Shown in pieces: positions 5,977 to 19,891 of a DNA stretch of 32,980 bases; the stretch's first letter is position 1, and the number at the start of each line of letters is the position of its first letter. Location of the stretch: assembly GCA_001898705.1 (NCBI GenBank), contig MKUU01000050.1:1-32980 (forward strand). The letters run 5' to 3'. Origin of the DNA: Caedibacter sp. 38-128. Its GTDB lineage: Bacteria > Pseudomonadota > Alphaproteobacteria > Caedimonadales > Caedimonadaceae. The notes under the pieces were generated by a model. The model did not search any database, was not told where the DNA came from, and saw only the letters and a program-made list of their open reading frames with translations. A program made the translations under genes and the position numbers.

Positions 5977-6957
5977 TCAGTCTCCTTCTTCAGCTTTATT
6001 TCTTATATGATAAGTGCTGGTTATAAATTGGAAAATGAAAAATAAAATGAGAAAAACGAGAAAAGAAAAAGGTAGAAGGAGCCCTAAAGCAATCCCAATA
6101 ATTGTAAAGATTATGCTCAAATACACTACTTTAACAATTGTTAGATGACCAGTACCTAAAAGTGTTTCTTTTGTTATGGGATTGATTCTTACTTCTTTAA
6201 GTTGTAGGAGCAATCCTAATAAAACTGCCGCTGTGTTTGAAAAAATCAGAGCAATAGAAAAAATCATACATTGATAGAAATCAAAAGGGCTTACTTTAAT
6301 TTTATTAAATATGTAGCCACCGATCATGATTATTACATAAAAAAACAAGTTATGTCTAAACCAAGTATACGTCGTTAAATCTTTTAAAAGGTCTTTAATT
6401 TTAAGCGTCCTGTCCTGGAATACATGTACTTTCTTATGGAAGGCCTTAGCTCTTTCAAGAACTTTTTGTGGCGTATTAACACTAATAATTTCAGCTGATT
6501 TCTCCCATACAGGTAGATCGTGTCGTGAGTTTCCAGCATAAATAAAATGATCAACTCCAAAACGTAAACATAAAGCTTGCGCTTTGGTTGATGCTCGTAA
6601 ATTTTTACTTCCATCACTGGCGAGGCATTCCTTAAAAATTCCAAGGTAATCATAAATGCTTTTGGCACATTTTTGATCTGCCGCAGTAACAAGATAAAGG
6701 TCATGTCCCTTTCTTGCTTTGTCTTTAATGTAGTCTAAGAAGCTTTCATTATATGGTAATAAAGCTGGATCAATTATTACATAATCAGCCAATCTTGCTT
6801 TTAAAAAAGCTCTCCCTCTACAAAGCCAAACAAAAATCTTAAAAATCTTCCAGGGGTATTTTCTAATAAATAATAGAACGCTTTCGTGCGTTACATCTGA
6901 ACGTATTAGAGTGCCATCAAGATCAATACATAAAGGAAGCTTTCTTTCTTTAACCAT
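5977..6957 (-). CDS. HAD-family phosphatase fused to a truncated, degenerate UbiA prenyltransferase domain
   Basis: Residues 1 to about 175 are a HAD hydrolase domain: catalytic DLDGTL (Asp12, Asp14), T91 in LVTAAD, and a late loop AGNSRHDLPVW (141-151). Residues from about 190 resemble the first half of a UbiA-type membrane prenyltransferase, with four hydrophobic segments (about 203-219, 226-252, 274-297, 298-316). HAD-UbiA fusions of about 480 residues are known in alphaproteobacteria. This protein stops at 326, so the second half and its aspartate motif are missing. The first motif (normally NDxxDxxxDR-HPxKRxRP) reads GLLLQLKEVRINPITKE here, without the aspartates. The HAD part looks intact; the UbiA part should not be catalytic. 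AGAGG lies 11 bases before ATG 6957. It follows the SBP-TRIC gene by 26 bases. Confidence 0.7.
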   Translation of the reverse strand: MVKERKLPLCIDLDGTLIRSDVTHESVLLFIRKYPWKIFKIFVWLCRGRAFLKARLADYVIIDPALLPYNESFLDYIKDKARKGHDLYLVTAADQKCAKSIYDYLGIFKECLASDGSKNLRASTKAQALCLRFGVDHFIYAGNSRHDLPVWEKSAEIISVNTPQKVLERAKAFHKKVHVFQDRTLKIKDLLKDLTTYTWFRHNLFFYVIIMIGGYIFNKIKVSPFDFYQCMIFSIALIFSNTAAVLLGLLLQLKEVRINPITKETLLGTGHLTIVKVVYLSIIFTIIGIALGLLLPFSFLVFLILFFIFQFITSTYHIRNKAEEGD

Positions 6958-6983: not shown

Positions 6984-8498
6984 CTACTTTTGTTTAGATA
7001 AAAAGCTTGGTCCCTTAATATTAAAAATACTCACGACCATTCGTGTCGTAAAAACTCCTACAATTGTTACAATAATTGCCCATAATACTTCATCAGGAGA
7101 CAAATAAGTATGATGCAAATGTAAGAAAACAGATAAAAAAAGGCTCCAAATTATCGCAACTTCAGCATAGAGCTCCCCCATAAAACTCACAACATGACGG
7201 TCTGGTCGCAATAAATCCCTTATTACTCCCCCTCCTGCCCCCGTAATAGCTGCCAACAAGGGGCCCCACAACCAAAGAGGCTCACATTTTGAAATTACGG
7301 CAACATTTGTACCAATAACTGTAAAGGCTGCAAGCCCTAAAGCATCAAAAACATCTAAAGCTCGCCCAAGAAATTTAACATCTAGACGCATTTTTGAATA
7401 AAAACGAAGGCGCGAAGATAAAAACGCCAACAATTGCAGTACAACATAACAAGCAAAGACAGTAATAAAAACTGCAAATAAATAATCTGGTGTCTGCAAA
7501 ACACCTAAGGGGCGCCTACCAACAATAATATCACGCATCATTCCTCCTCCAATTGCAGGAAGCATTGCAAGCGTTATTGTTGTGAATAGTGTTGCATGTA
7601 TACGATAGGCGATGATTATTCCTGATAGTGCAAATGCTACGGTGCCAATTATATCAATAGTATAAAACCATTTCTTATCTATATTTTGTAATAAGAGCGG
7701 AGCAACCAAATAGGTTTTAAAGGCTAATTTATATTCCTTAGAATTTTTAAAATTTTGTATTGCCTTATTGATATTGCTTAACTCTTTTAAAGATGTAGAT
7801 TTTTTACTCAGCATAAAATGTATTGGATTACGACTAATTTCATACGTTTCTATTTTTTCGTGCAATCGCTTATGCCAAGCAATGGTTGTGCCATTAACGT
7901 GATCAGCAAGAAAACCATCTATATGATTATTTTCTAACCATATGATATTTTGGAGAGTATTACTCGTTTTAAAAATTAAATGCTGATAACGTTTGTCATT
8001 AATAAAATCATTTAGTTCTGGAGAAGAGTAGAAGTATCCCTCTGTTACACCTAATTTAAATTGCTGATGTTTAATTGCTGAAATAAATTCGGAAACATTT
8101 CGAAAATTAAGCTTTTTCGAAGAATCTTTAAGAATAAAGAGAGCATCAATACTTTCACGATATGGCACTGTAAAATAATAATTTTTTGTGCGTTCTGTTG
8201 TTTTGGTAGCTCCCATAGCAATATCATAAAACCCAGATTTCAACTTTTCTTGATGTTGCTGCCATGAAATCTCTTCATAAATAACTTCAGATCCAGCAAT
8301 ATCAGCAACAGCATTTAAAATATGAATATCTAGTCCTATTAAATAATTAATACCTTCCTTTTTTTTTATGTATTGATATGGTTCCCAAGAATACCAACCA
8401 CATTTTATTGCCCGCATTTGAGTAGCATCTGCATTGTTTCCAAAAGTGAAAATTACGAGAAATAAAAATTTTAAAATTGACATCAATTTTTTTAGCAC
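6984..8498 (-). CDS. Periplasmic solute-binding domain (SBP family 3) fused to a TRIC/UPF0126 membrane channel domain
   Basis: A two-part protein of 504 residues. Residues 1-26 form a signal peptide (KK, then a hydrophobic run, ADA cleavage site). Residues about 30-265 are a family-3 amino-acid-binding fold: GLDIHIL (55-61), GFYDIAMGATKTTERTKNY with the ligand-carboxylate Arg103, the P-Y-R motif near 112-114, and Asp199 in the GFLAD motif. Residues about 278-495 are a full TRIC/YicG-type domain with both repeats: DIIGTVAFALSG then GGGMMRD (317-323), and DALGLAAFTVIG then GGGVIRD (422-428), about seven membrane segments. The start is GTG 8498; ATG 8483 in frame is an alternative that keeps the signal peptide. 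No ABC partners lie beside it. It may sense or deliver an amino acid to the membrane domain; the substrate is unknown. Confidence 0.85.
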   Translation of the reverse strand: MLKKLMSILKFLFLVIFTFGNNADATQMRAIKCGWYSWEPYQYIKKKEGINYLIGLDIHILNAVADIAGSEVIYEEISWQQHQEKLKSGFYDIAMGATKTTERTKNYYFTVPYRESIDALFILKDSSKKLNFRNVSEFISAIKHQQFKLGVTEGYFYSSPELNDFINDKRYQHLIFKTSNTLQNIIWLENNHIDGFLADHVNGTTIAWHKRLHEKIETYEISRNPIHFMLSKKSTSLKELSNINKAIQNFKNSKEYKLAFKTYLVAPLLLQNIDKKWFYTIDIIGTVAFALSGIIIAYRIHATLFTTITLAMLPAIGGGMMRDIIVGRRPLGVLQTPDYLFAVFITVFACYVVLQLLAFLSSRLRFYSKMRLDVKFLGRALDVFDALGLAAFTVIGTNVAVISKCEPLWLWGPLLAAITGAGGGVIRDLLRPDRHVVSFMGELYAEVAIIWSLFLSVFLHLHHTYLSPDEVLWAIIVTIVGVFTTRMVVSIFNIKGPSFLSKQK

Positions 8499-15896: not shown

Positions 15897-16694
15897 TTAT
15901 ACATTTAGTAAAATTTCATCCTCTTCACCTGTTTTATGAACGACTTCTTTAAAGAGTCGTAAAAGGTCATCTTCTTTTAATTTTGAGCGCTCTGCACCTT
16001 TAACATCAAAAACTATCTCGCCTTCTGTCAACATAAGCGTACGATTCCCTACCTCAAGGGCTTGATGCATGCTATGAGTCACCATTAACACTGTTAGATT
16101 CTTCTCTAAAATTATATTACGCGTAAGCTGAATAATAAAAGCTGCAGTTCGAGGATCAAGCGCCGCTGTATGCTCATCAAGAACTAATATCTGCATTGGG
16201 GCAAGGACTGCCATAATCAACGAAATAGCTTGACGCTGCCCACCTGAAAGCAACCCTATAGGATCCTTAAGTCTCGCTTCAAGCCCTAAATTTAATCTTT
16301 CAAGAAAGGTTGTAAAAGCTTTACGATTTTTAGGCGATAGCGCAAATCCAAGACCAAGGTTTTTACCACGATAAAATGCTAAAGCCAGATTTTCTTCAAC
16401 AGTTAAACTTCCACACGTTCCTACCAAAGGGTCTTGAAATACGCGAGCAACCATACTTGCTCTTTTTGCCGCAGACCACCGTGTAACATCAGTTTCTTCA
16501 AAAAATATCCTTCCCTGTGAAATATTGATATCTCCAGTTAAAACATTAAGAAGAGTTGATTTCCCAGCCCCATTCCCCCCAATTACGGTGACAATTTCCC
16601 CTTCTTCAATGGTCAGAGAAACATTCTTTAAGACAACTTTTTCTAACGCTGTTCCTTGATTAAATAAAACGCGTACTTTCTCAAGCCTAATCAT
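15897..16694 (-). CDS. ABC transporter ATP-binding protein (TrpZ/COG1101 type)
   Basis: Energy-coupling subunit of the neighbouring importer. Walker A is GGNGAGKST (39-47, Lys45), the Q-loop lies in RVFQDP, the signature is LSGGQRQ (149-155), Walker B is ILVLDE (169-174) and the switch His is His207. The EHTAALDP after Walker B is typical of the COG1101 subgroup paired with the ABC_sub_bind proteins found here. Its ATG overlaps the permease TGA (ATGA, 4 bases), so translation is coupled. Last gene of the four-gene minus-strand operon. Confidence 0.93.
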   Translation of the reverse strand: MIRLEKVRVLFNQGTALEKVVLKNVSLTIEEGEIVTVIGGNGAGKSTLLNVLTGDINISQGRIFFEETDVTRWSAAKRASMVARVFQDPLVGTCGSLTVEENLALAFYRGKNLGLGFALSPKNRKAFTTFLERLNLGLEARLKDPIGLLSGGQRQAISLIMAVLAPMQILVLDEHTAALDPRTAAFIIQLTRNIILEKNLTVLMVTHSMHQALEVGNRTLMLTEGEIVFDVKGAERSKLKEDDLLRLFKEVVHKTGEEDEILLNV

Positions 16695-17596
16695 GCGTGA
16701 CCCCGTCCTATTAATTTATTTGCTGTTGCTTCTTTTAAACGTGGAAGTATCATCGCTATTATTACAATAGCTGCTGTCACCAAATTAAGATCAGTCGCCT
16801 GTAACCCAAGGCCATCCGCATTGAGAGCCAGAGCAATCGCAAAACGATGGAGGATCGTTCCAATAATACAAGCAAAAAGAGTTAACCAAATCCTTCTCGT
16901 AGGAAAAACGACTTCACCAATGATTACGGCCGCAAGTCCCATAATAATAGTTCCATTTCCAATAGTAACGTCAGCAAACCCTTGATGTTGAGCAAACAAT
17001 GCCCCCCCTAAAGCAATCAGCCCGTTGCTTAAAGAAATGCCCAAAAGAATCATTCCTTTTGTTTTTATGCCTTGAGCTTGAGCCATACGTGGATTGGTTC
17101 CAGTTGCTCGTAAAGCAAGTCCAGTTTTTGTCAGCAAAAAATACCACAATGAAACACCAGCAACTAAGGCAATCAAGCTTAATAGAAGAATTGTTCCTGC
17201 TATTTTTGCGGTAAAGAATGTTTCAAATGGACTAAAAATTGTTTTTATATCCATCATGATTGTGACATTAGGGCCCTTCATAATTCGTAAATTGATAGAG
17301 TAAAGAGCCAGCATTGTCAAAATACTCGCTAACAAGTTTAAGATTTTCCAGCGCACACTGAGCCATGCTGTAAATAAACCTGATACGCATCCGCCTAAGA
17401 CAGCACATAATGTAGATAACCATGGATCCTGACCCTGAGAAATTAAAGTTGCGGCAAGCGCTGCACCTAAAGGAAAAGAGCCATCAGCCGTTAAATCAGG
17501 AAAATCTAAGACACGAAAGGAAAGATAAACGCCTAAAGCAACCATCCCATAAATTAATCCAAGCTCGATTGCTCCCAAAAATTGTAATTCGTTCAT
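16691..17596 (-). CDS. ABC transporter permease (TrpY/COG4120 type)
   Basis: Membrane subunit of 301 residues with about eight or nine hydrophobic segments, of the branched-chain-type permease superfamily. It contains the conserved ADGSFPLGAA stretch (about 37-46) and ALRATGTNPRMAQAQGI (about 161-177), the cytoplasmic coupling loop that meets the ATPase. These features and the gene order (binding protein, permease, ATPase) fit the TrpXYZ-like uptake systems. Four bases separate it from the upstream binding protein. The substrate is unknown; tryptophan is one possibility known from Gram-positive relatives. Confidence 0.9.
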   Translation of the reverse strand: MNELQFLGAIELGLIYGMVALGVYLSFRVLDFPDLTADGSFPLGAALAATLISQGQDPWLSTLCAVLGGCVSGLFTAWLSVRWKILNLLASILTMLALYSINLRIMKGPNVTIMMDIKTIFSPFETFFTAKIAGTILLLSLIALVAGVSLWYFLLTKTGLALRATGTNPRMAQAQGIKTKGMILLGISLSNGLIALGGALFAQHQGFADVTIGNGTIIMGLAAVIIGEVVFPTRRIWLTLFACIIGTILHRFAIALALNADGLGLQATDLNLVTAAIVIIAMILPRLKEATANKLIGRGHA

Positions 17597-17600
17597 CCCT

Positions 17601-18653
17601 CTATCTTTCTTGATTTAAAGAGCCTTCAAGCCCAATTTTTTCAATGTTGAAGTCTGTATCTTCCGGAAGCTTCAGGTTTAAGCTACTTAGGGTTTTCATA
17701 TTCACTGTTATCTTAGAAACTCTTGCTGTTTCGATGGCAATATCTCCAACATTTTCTCCTTGCAAAATACGAGCAACCATTTTTCCCGCACTTTTTCCAA
17801 TATCAAAAAGGTGGGCTCCTGCGGTTGCTAAAGCACCTTGTAAAACAGAATCTGTCTCACTTGTGAAGATTGGTTTCTGAAAGTCAAACTGTAGCTTAAT
17901 TAGGCTATCCATCGCAGAAAGAACAGTATTATCTAGAGGGATGTAAAAAGCATCAACTTTTTTAATAAGGCTTAAAGCAGCCGCATGAACATCAGATGTT
18001 TTTATAGCTGTGGCAGATAAAACTTCGAAGCCTTCTTTTTTTGCAAGCGCTTCAAAAAGCTTAAATTGCTTAACAGAATTAATTTCCCCTGGATTATAAA
18101 TACCACCTATAATTTTAGCATGAGGGAGCATTTTCTTAATAAGCGTTACTTGTCTTTCAAGAGGAGGAAAATCACTCACTCCCGTAACAAAGTCTCCAGG
18201 CTTCTTGAGATCCTTGACGAGACCCGCATTTATTGGATCAGTCACAGCAGCAAAAACAATCGGAATATTACTCTTACGAGCAGCAGAGACCAAAGCCTGA
18301 GCGCTTGGTGTTGCAATGGCCACCATAATGTCTGGATTCATACTTACAAATTGTTGGGCAATTTGAATATTAGTTGCACTATTCCCTTGAGGATTTTTAT
18401 AAATCCAGCGTATCGTTTTACCATCAGTATAACCAAGTTCTTCAAGAGATTTTTTAATTCCTTCTCTCACAGCATTGGCAGAAGGATGATCGATTATTTG
18501 TATAACGGTAATAAGTGGTTTGTTCTCTTCTGAGTGCGTAACGGATACTAACAAATTAAAACAAGCTATAATTGTTAGGAACCTTGTATAAAATAAACCA
18601 AAAAAATCTCTGAAGCCCTTCAAAGTTGGAATGAGCTTGTATTTAATGGTCAT
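17601..18653 (-). CDS. ABC transporter substrate-binding protein, ABC_sub_bind family (first paralogue)
   Basis: A 350-residue periplasmic binding protein of the TrpX/YtrF-like ABC_sub_bind (PF04392-type) family. Diagnostic stretches are DHPSANAVREGIKKSL, NPQGN followed by IAQQFVSMNPDIMVAIATPSAQA, PIVFAAVTDP, YNPGEINSVKQF and FYIPLDNTVLSAM. The signal peptide is unusual: about 24 residues with several basic charges before the hydrophobic part (25-41). AAGGAG is seven bases before ATG 18653, so the start is well supported. It is the binding protein directly joined to the permease gene. It is strongly similar along its length to the next gene upstream. Confidence 0.93.
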   Translation of the reverse strand: MTIKYKLIPTLKGFRDFFGLFYTRFLTIIACFNLLVSVTHSEENKPLITVIQIIDHPSANAVREGIKKSLEELGYTDGKTIRWIYKNPQGNSATNIQIAQQFVSMNPDIMVAIATPSAQALVSAARKSNIPIVFAAVTDPINAGLVKDLKKPGDFVTGVSDFPPLERQVTLIKKMLPHAKIIGGIYNPGEINSVKQFKLFEALAKKEGFEVLSATAIKTSDVHAAALSLIKKVDAFYIPLDNTVLSAMDSLIKLQFDFQKPIFTSETDSVLQGALATAGAHLFDIGKSAGKMVARILQGENVGDIAIETARVSKITVNMKTLSSLNLKLPEDTDFNIEKIGLEGSLNQER

Positions 18654-18784
18654 GATAGGGCTCCTTTACTTTTATTTCTTTGCCTTTTACCATATCTCTT
18701 ATTATTGCTAACAAGACAATTTCAGTTAACTACATTTCAAATTTTAGCGTATAAAGCTGTCATACAACCATTTACAATCTCATA

Positions 18785-18790
18785 ATTATA
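18785..18790 (-). promoter_or_regulatory. Candidate -10 element in the gap between the two binding-protein genes
   Basis: On the minus strand a perfect TATAAT lies in the 179-base gap before the 18653 gene. The -35 region at 17-18 bases is poor. If used, the transporter could be expressed separately from the upstream binding protein, with a leader of about 125 bases. Confidence 0.3.
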
Positions 18791-18832
18791 CCTTAAATTT
18801 CAACTAATTTTTGAAAATTGGCGCATATTAAA

Positions 18833-19828
18833 TTATTTTTTTAGCTTATAAATTTTTGCCTTTTGAGCGATTTTGTCTGGGATATTTAACCCTAAATGCA
18901 TTGCTGTCGTGTGATTAACATAGATTTGAGGATTTTGCGGAAACGCCACAGGAATTTGTAAATTTTCTGTATTTTCTAAAAATTTAAGTACTATTTCTCC
19001 AACCTGTTTCCCGTGCTCATAATAACTCGTACCAATAGCAGCAAGGGCCCCTTTTTGAACAAGCACTTCATCACTTGTAAAACATGGAATCTTTTTTTCA
19101 TATTGCAAAGAAATCAAAGAAGGGATTGCAGAAACAACGGTATTATCTTGGGGAATATACAAAACATCTACTTTTCCAATTAAATTTTGGGCAACAAAAA
19201 GTACTTCTGAACTCCTTGTTGTGGGAGCTAGTAAAAGCTCAAAATGTAACTTTTGCGCTAGAGCCTGAAATTCACTAACTGTCTTTACCGAATTAATTTC
19301 TGCGGGATTGTATAAAACTCCAATTTTCTTAGCTGTTGGAAAAAGGTCACGAATCAATTCAATTTGAGCTTGTAAAGGAGGCAGATCACTCACACCAGAA
19401 ATAAAGCTCCCAGGTTTATTTAAATCTTTAACGAGCTTTGACTGCAAAGGATCAGTTACAGCCGCAAACACAAGAGGAATTTCTTTATTATAAGAAGCAG
19501 AGGCAAGAGATTGTGCGCTTGGTGTCGAAATGGCCACCATAACATCTGGCTTTATACCAGCAAACTGTTGTGCAATTTGATTATTAATACTCATATTTCC
19601 TTGAGCATTTTTATAAATGATTTTGTAATCTTTTCCTTCTTTTAAACCACTATGAAAAAGTACATCATAAATCCCCTGCCTTACCGCTTCAAGAGAAGGA
19701 TGTTCAACTAATTGGCTAATAGCAATAACTTTAAGGGCTTGAACGGATGGCTTAGCTCCATCTTTAAATAAAAAAATACCCCCCAAAATTAAAACACCTA
19801 AACTTAAAAATATTTTTAGTATTTTCAT
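18833..19828 (-). CDS. ABC transporter substrate-binding protein, ABC_sub_bind family (second paralogue)
   Basis: A 331-residue paralogue of the neighbouring binding protein, with the same landmarks: EHPSLEAVRQGI, NAQGN then IAQQFAGIKPDVMVAISTPSAQS, PLVFAAVTDP, YNPAEINSVKTV and LYIPQDNTVVSAI. I start it at ATG 19828, giving a short signal or membrane anchor (MKILKIFLSLGVLILGG). ATG 19843 adds five residues and lacks a binding site. No lipobox Cys follows the hydrophobic run, so it is either cleaved or stays anchored. It lacks a permease or ATPase of its own nearby and probably feeds the same transporter with a different or overlapping ligand. 179 bases separate the two genes. Confidence 0.9.
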   Translation of the reverse strand: MKILKIFLSLGVLILGGIFLFKDGAKPSVQALKVIAISQLVEHPSLEAVRQGIYDVLFHSGLKEGKDYKIIYKNAQGNMSINNQIAQQFAGIKPDVMVAISTPSAQSLASASYNKEIPLVFAAVTDPLQSKLVKDLNKPGSFISGVSDLPPLQAQIELIRDLFPTAKKIGVLYNPAEINSVKTVSEFQALAQKLHFELLLAPTTRSSEVLFVAQNLIGKVDVLYIPQDNTVVSAIPSLISLQYEKKIPCFTSDEVLVQKGALAAIGTSYYEHGKQVGEIVLKFLENTENLQIPVAFPQNPQIYVNHTTAMHLGLNIPDKIAQKAKIYKLKK

Positions 19829-19891
19829 GATGCAAATTCTCATTAAATTTTTGGGTCACACTACGAGAAAATCCTTCTTCACGCAAAGTTT

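Follow-up and report, generated by a model that had tools for sequence, protein, structure and literature searches.

How is an amino-acid-binding domain put to use when it stands in one polypeptide with a complete TRIC channel domain? The question is raised by a gene at 6984..8498 on the reverse strand of the window, the stretch of 32,980 nucleotides from Caedibacter sp. 38-128 (contig MKUU01000050.1) that was analysed here. The initial annotation had read it as a family-3 solute-binding protein (SBP) domain fused to a TRIC channel, which could gate conduction or hand a captured amino acid to the membrane domain. The role of prokaryotic TRICs, as K+ channels, membrane-potential regulators or glycine transporters, and their control are unsettled, and a receptor hard-wired to the pore in one chain makes binding, gating and transport testable on one purified protein. 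Literature searches found no published study of the function of an SBP-TRIC protein. Silverio and Saier (2011) reportedly refer in their abstract to prokaryotic TRICs with further domains fused at the N- or the C-terminus. The architecture may therefore have been recorded before, and it is probably present in domain databases already.

The gene is complete and encodes 504 amino acids from a GTG start, with an alternative ATG at codon 6; which of the two is used is uncertain. Residues 1-26 (8421..8498, reverse strand) are hydrophobic by hydropathy and modelled as a helix at 2-18, with low confidence at 21-24, which is the expectation for a signal peptide or anchor. The single open frame with signal peptide, SBP and TRIC domain thus stands as first described. 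That two separate proteins are made, or that a sequencing error has joined two genes, was named at the outset as what would undo this picture; it is extremely unlikely, and nothing was found in its support. The only in-frame start codons at residues 225-330 are ATG229, TTG264, ATG312, ATG320 and ATG321, and none of the five gives a complete TRIC domain with a credible ribosome-binding site. TTG264 has no Shine-Dalgarno sequence. The AGGAGG ahead of ATG320/321 is a by-product of how the GGG motif is written, GGAGGAGGA, and a start there would cut TM2. An internal start or a split gene was therefore rejected. A sequencing or assembly error is countered by the uninterrupted frame across many independent assemblies, by the single clade formed by the fusions (see below) and by purifying selection, which acts on both halves of both copies present in this genome (dN/dS 0.03-0.19). 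Measured against Caedibacter orthologues, this copy has a dN/dS of 0.18-0.19 in the SBP and 0.09-0.10 in the TRIC half, and the second fusion copy one of 0.03-0.08; the genome holds no standalone TRIC.

The family-3 solute-binding domain, residues 28-263 (7710..8417, reverse strand), matches Pfam PF00497 (SBP_bac_3) at residues 37-264 with an E-value of 4.6e-18, far over the curated cut-off, and an NCBIfam lysine/arginine/ornithine SBP-like match at residues 11-202 lies below its cut-off. In an AlphaFold2 model of the monomer (pLDDT 89.8, pTM 0.80), this half has the bilobal fold of amino-acid binding proteins, with Z-scores of 24-25 to 3h7m, AncQR, GlnBP and LAO and 22.9 to the GluR0 ligand core (2pyy). 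The head-group arginine and aspartate of LAO, GlnBP and AncQR are also in place, as the initial annotation had it: Arg103 (8190..8192, reverse strand), the predicted partner of the ligand carboxylate, is Arg in 52 of the 54 full-length members compared, and Asp199 (7902..7904, reverse strand), predicted to hold the amino group, is Asp in all 54. W35 is invariant in the same set. From a hand alignment, we take Asp11, Tyr14 and Phe52 of LAO to correspond to W35, W38 and W79, and a tryptophan at the Asp11 position would argue against a basic ligand. Unlike LAO, GlnBP and AncQR, the fusion appears to have an aromatic-rich pocket (W35, W38, W79, Y155, Y157), carries a Tyr at LAO's Gly-Ser-Thr motif and is joined to a TRIC domain rather than working with an ABC permease. 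The ligand is probably a zwitterionic amino acid, small or aromatic rather than basic.

The TRIC domain follows at residues 277-494 (7017..7670, reverse strand) with seven transmembrane helices. Pfam PF03458 recognizes two Gly_transporter/TRIC repeats (E 1.2e-28, far over the curated cut-off), each of which passes when scored singly (61.5 and 52.4 bits), and a PRK10578-like NCBIfam match at residues 278-499 is below cut-off. The modelled half aligns with 5wuf over 195/195 residues (Z 25.1, rmsd 2.0), and the seven-helix two-repeat fold is common to prokaryotic TRICs (PF03458/UPF0126; SaTRIC, SsTRIC, RsTRIC, CpTRIC, E. coli YadS/YicG). Both GGGxxRD motifs noticed at first are confirmed by the sequence and the family alignment, at the TM2 kink (residues 317-323, 7530..7550, reverse strand) and the TM5 kink (residues 422-428, 7215..7235, reverse strand). 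The filter phenylalanines F289 (TM1) and F392 (TM4) and the glycine kinks 317-319 and 422-424 are kept in the family and are features of SsTRIC, one of the K+-conducting TRICs (PMC5401562). The cytoplasmic lock of SaTRIC, D99-R139-D140-Y155 (PMC5477506), has its counterparts in D385, R427, D428 and Y444. In place of the cytoplasmic TRIC plug motif PX5-7E(D/Q)XYA the protein has E442-L-Y-A with a longer P-to-E spacing (9), and across the family E442 is kept in about 26% and Y444 in 38/54. The fusions differ from other prokaryotic TRICs in the added N-terminal periplasmic SBP, in the plug glutamate, which is mostly not kept, in a longer M3-M4 loop and in the new near-invariants W277, F278, W411 and E446, of which W411 and E446 are invariant in the 54 members. 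Positive-inside counts give an N-out topology, in agreement with the reported TRIC orientation (PMC5477506) and with the early proposal that the binding domain faces the outside.

Could the pore nevertheless be incidental, with the TRIC half serving mainly to anchor the protein in the membrane or as a scaffold for assembly, and the SBP an orphan sensor or the servant of another permease? One amino-acid ABC permease is present elsewhere in the genome, and standalone SBPs near the fusion SBP clade exist in other Pseudomonadota (family f192), and the stretch read around them shows no neighbouring ABC genes. We consider this improbable, since a mere anchor would not need the pore residues, which are conserved in nearly all members, and the TRIC half evolves at a dN/dS of about 0.1 or lower.

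The surroundings of the gene name no partner either. An RNase E gene lies upstream on the opposite strand, and a HAD/UbiA-like gene follows 27 bp downstream, then rpsB, tsf, pyrH, frr, uppS and cdsA-like genes. The HAD/UbiA-like gene (5977-6957, reverse strand), which stays beside the fusion in Caedibacter, joins a HAD phosphatase to an apparently truncated UbiA-type prenyltransferase (326 aa, where the model spans 482 positions). No conserved operon partner was found in flanks of up to 6 kb at 47 loci; synteny exists at clade level only, with housekeeping-type neighbours in Rickettsiaceae and the rne-side and rpsB-tsf-pyrH-frr genes in Caedibacter. No ABC gene adjoins the fusion, as had been remarked from the start, and a complete importer of the PF04392 type is encoded about 7.4 kb away (15897-19843, reverse strand), made up of a permease, an ATPase and its own two binding proteins of the ABC_sub_bind kind. 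An ABC amino-acid importer with a fused binding domain was rejected on two grounds, the missing BPD_transp domain and the missing adjacent ABC gene.

Rather than being a local curiosity, the fusion recurs in many bacteria. The 54 full-length members come from Caedibacter relatives, Rickettsiaceae, Reyranella and beta- and deltaproteobacteria, and from metagenome-assembled genomes (MAGs) of Verrucomicrobia and Cyanobium. It is found in 6 of the 10 genomes of the order; class-wide, 16/385 genomes match the profile used at 1e-40, two of these (L044/L045) with a TRIC domain only, and in the family of genome G075 the distribution is patchy (4/61). The named matches cover Caedibacter sp. 37-49, Caedimonas, Paracaedibacteraceae, Rickettsiaceae, Megaira, Reyranella, Burkholderiaceae, Alcaligenaceae, Desulfobacteraceae, Opitutae/Verrucomicrobiota and Cyanobium. 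Since every one of these records is a MAG, an isolated outlying bin may have been assigned wrongly. Plasmid and phage records yielded no full-length fusion. A tree built from 78 TRIC domains unites 48 fused domains and the two SBP-less rows in a single clade (support 100/100) on a long stem (1.92 changes per column), which makes a single origin of the fusion probable; most simply, the fusion arose once and the SBP was lost once. The main clades reappear in the SBP tree, which is weak in its deep branches and sets the fused L007, L042 and L051 apart. Judged from these comparisons, the SBP-TRIC fusion is a widespread and old subfamily.

The segment between the two halves bears on how they might work together. 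The linker, residues 264-276 (7671..7709, reverse strand), is covered by the last SBP helix (254-273 in the model), which breaks at 274-275 before TM1 begins (276-299). The span from Y263 to W277 measures exactly 15 residues in 54/54 full-length proteins, and several spans within the SBP vary in length. A second member, 37% identical, was modelled with linker helices at 264-272 and 274-282 before TM1 at 285-308 (pLDDT >90 there); the two models are not fully independent because both were folded from the same sequence set. GlnPQ-type ABC importers resemble the fusion in having an SBP covalently joined to a membrane domain, and differ in their BPD_transp domain and ATPase partner and in a tether that is described as flexible in GlnPQ, an importer fed by SBP delivery, where homologues carry an 11-residue insertion in the SBD1-SBD2 linker (PMC8025302). 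Where an SBP-like domain gates a pore, chimeras have shown connector length to be critical (PMC6385376).

Since direct coupling needs a fixed-length helical connector and GlnPQ delivery domains have flexible tethers, we tentatively favour, at a little under an even chance, an amino-acid-responsive TRIC in which ligand-induced closure would act on TM1 and the pore. The fusions would then be an old family of inner-membrane proteins with a periplasmic amino-acid receptor built onto a TRIC pore, assembled from three protomers, each carrying its SBP on top of its own pore. Binding of a zwitterionic amino acid would close the SBP, and the movement could travel along the linker helix into TM1, reaching the outer vestibule and then the M1/M2/M4/M5 filter, where the change may alter K+/Na+ conduction. 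The reading is supported by the linker, constant in length beside variable SBP spans and modelled as a helix in two members, by the retention of Arg103 and Asp199 together with F289, F392 and the glycine kinks of K+-conducting TRICs, and by the grouping of the TRIC halves in one clade on a long stem. Such a protein would function in the manner of ligand-gated channels, yet it is no glutamate receptor. GluR0 likewise couples an SBP-like ligand domain to a membrane domain, but its membrane domain is an inverted P-loop channel set into the SBP, whereas the SBP of the fusion is unsplit and N-terminal. A bacterial ionotropic glutamate receptor was rejected because the SBP is contiguous (28-263) and the membrane domain is TRIC, not a P-loop channel in a split SBP.

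The tethered SBP might instead capture glycine or another small amino acid and deliver it to the TRIC domain as a transporter, a quite possible alternative that we rank only slightly lower, given the glycine-use phenotype of TRIC genes. According to work cited in PMC12173739, UPF0126/PF03458 genes matter for the use of glycine in 11 bacteria, and the family was proposed to be a glycine transporter; this link fits transport as well as gating and is counted against the responsive TRIC. SBPs normally serve to capture ligands, crystal structures show TRIC pores with their outer side open (PMC5477506), and many members belong to intracellular or reduced-genome lineages that need amino-acid import, often with 2-3 paralogues. 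However, the linker, fixed in length and modelled as a helix, does not resemble a flexible tether, the solved prokaryotic TRICs pass K+/Na+ (PMC5401562) and no energy-coupling partner is conserved nearby.

Exceptional members cut both ways for the responsive TRIC. In a third paralogue of L054 (1492-2973) and L055 (1450-2931), the ligand Arg and both Arg motifs of the TRIC half are gone while the fusion and the linker length are kept; this joint loss supports the coupling, but it counts as one event only, which is a point against. In L170 (1501-3039, reverse strand) the SBP is strongly diverged and the ligand Arg and Asp are gone, but pore and linker length are intact, which shows that the two functions can come apart and weakens any general rule that ligand site and pore are lost together. 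L044/L045 have lost the SBP, with no split SBP gene within about 8 kb, yet keep most of the outer-face signature; this too, like L170, is counted against the favoured reading. That signature comes from comparing fused with standalone TRICs: 8/62 periplasmic-side and 1/81 cytoplasmic positions are newly fixed (P 0.01), and 0 periplasmic and 8 cytoplasmic canonical positions are lost (P 0.01), with boundaries drawn after the residue list had been seen. Outside the membrane core, the fused-specific invariants are mostly periplasmic, and canonical residues have been lost chiefly on the side of the cytoplasmic plug. With other boundaries and cut-offs, P ranged between 0.0004 and 1, and most settings pointed the same way. 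The asymmetry, sensitive to these choices and not significant under each of them, is thus only suggestive that newly fixed residues tend to the periplasmic face; to that boundary-dependent extent it supports the amino-acid-responsive TRIC.

What is new here is the 15-residue linker span modelled as a helix, the retention of ligand and pore residues almost throughout, and the suggestive periplasmic-face fixation. If gating is true, the fusion would be a second, independent route from a bacterial binding protein to an amino-acid-gated channel. A bolder proposal, which we hold as possible but rather doubtful, is that the fusions are amino-acid-gated ion channels of a class of their own. Such a class would have evolved a single time and independently of glutamate receptors, by rigid attachment of a family-3 receptor to a TRIC pore, and would be widespread among intracellular and environmental bacteria.

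Two further features vary among the members. In the Rickettsiaceae fusions L062 and L068, the C-terminus is extended by a long charged tail in which Glu, Pro and Lys abound. Tandem SBP-TRIC gene pairs, which could form mixed trimers, occur in L058 and L074 and at G120:C1:754902-758091, G224:C2:18698-21980 and G168:C12:224522-227743.
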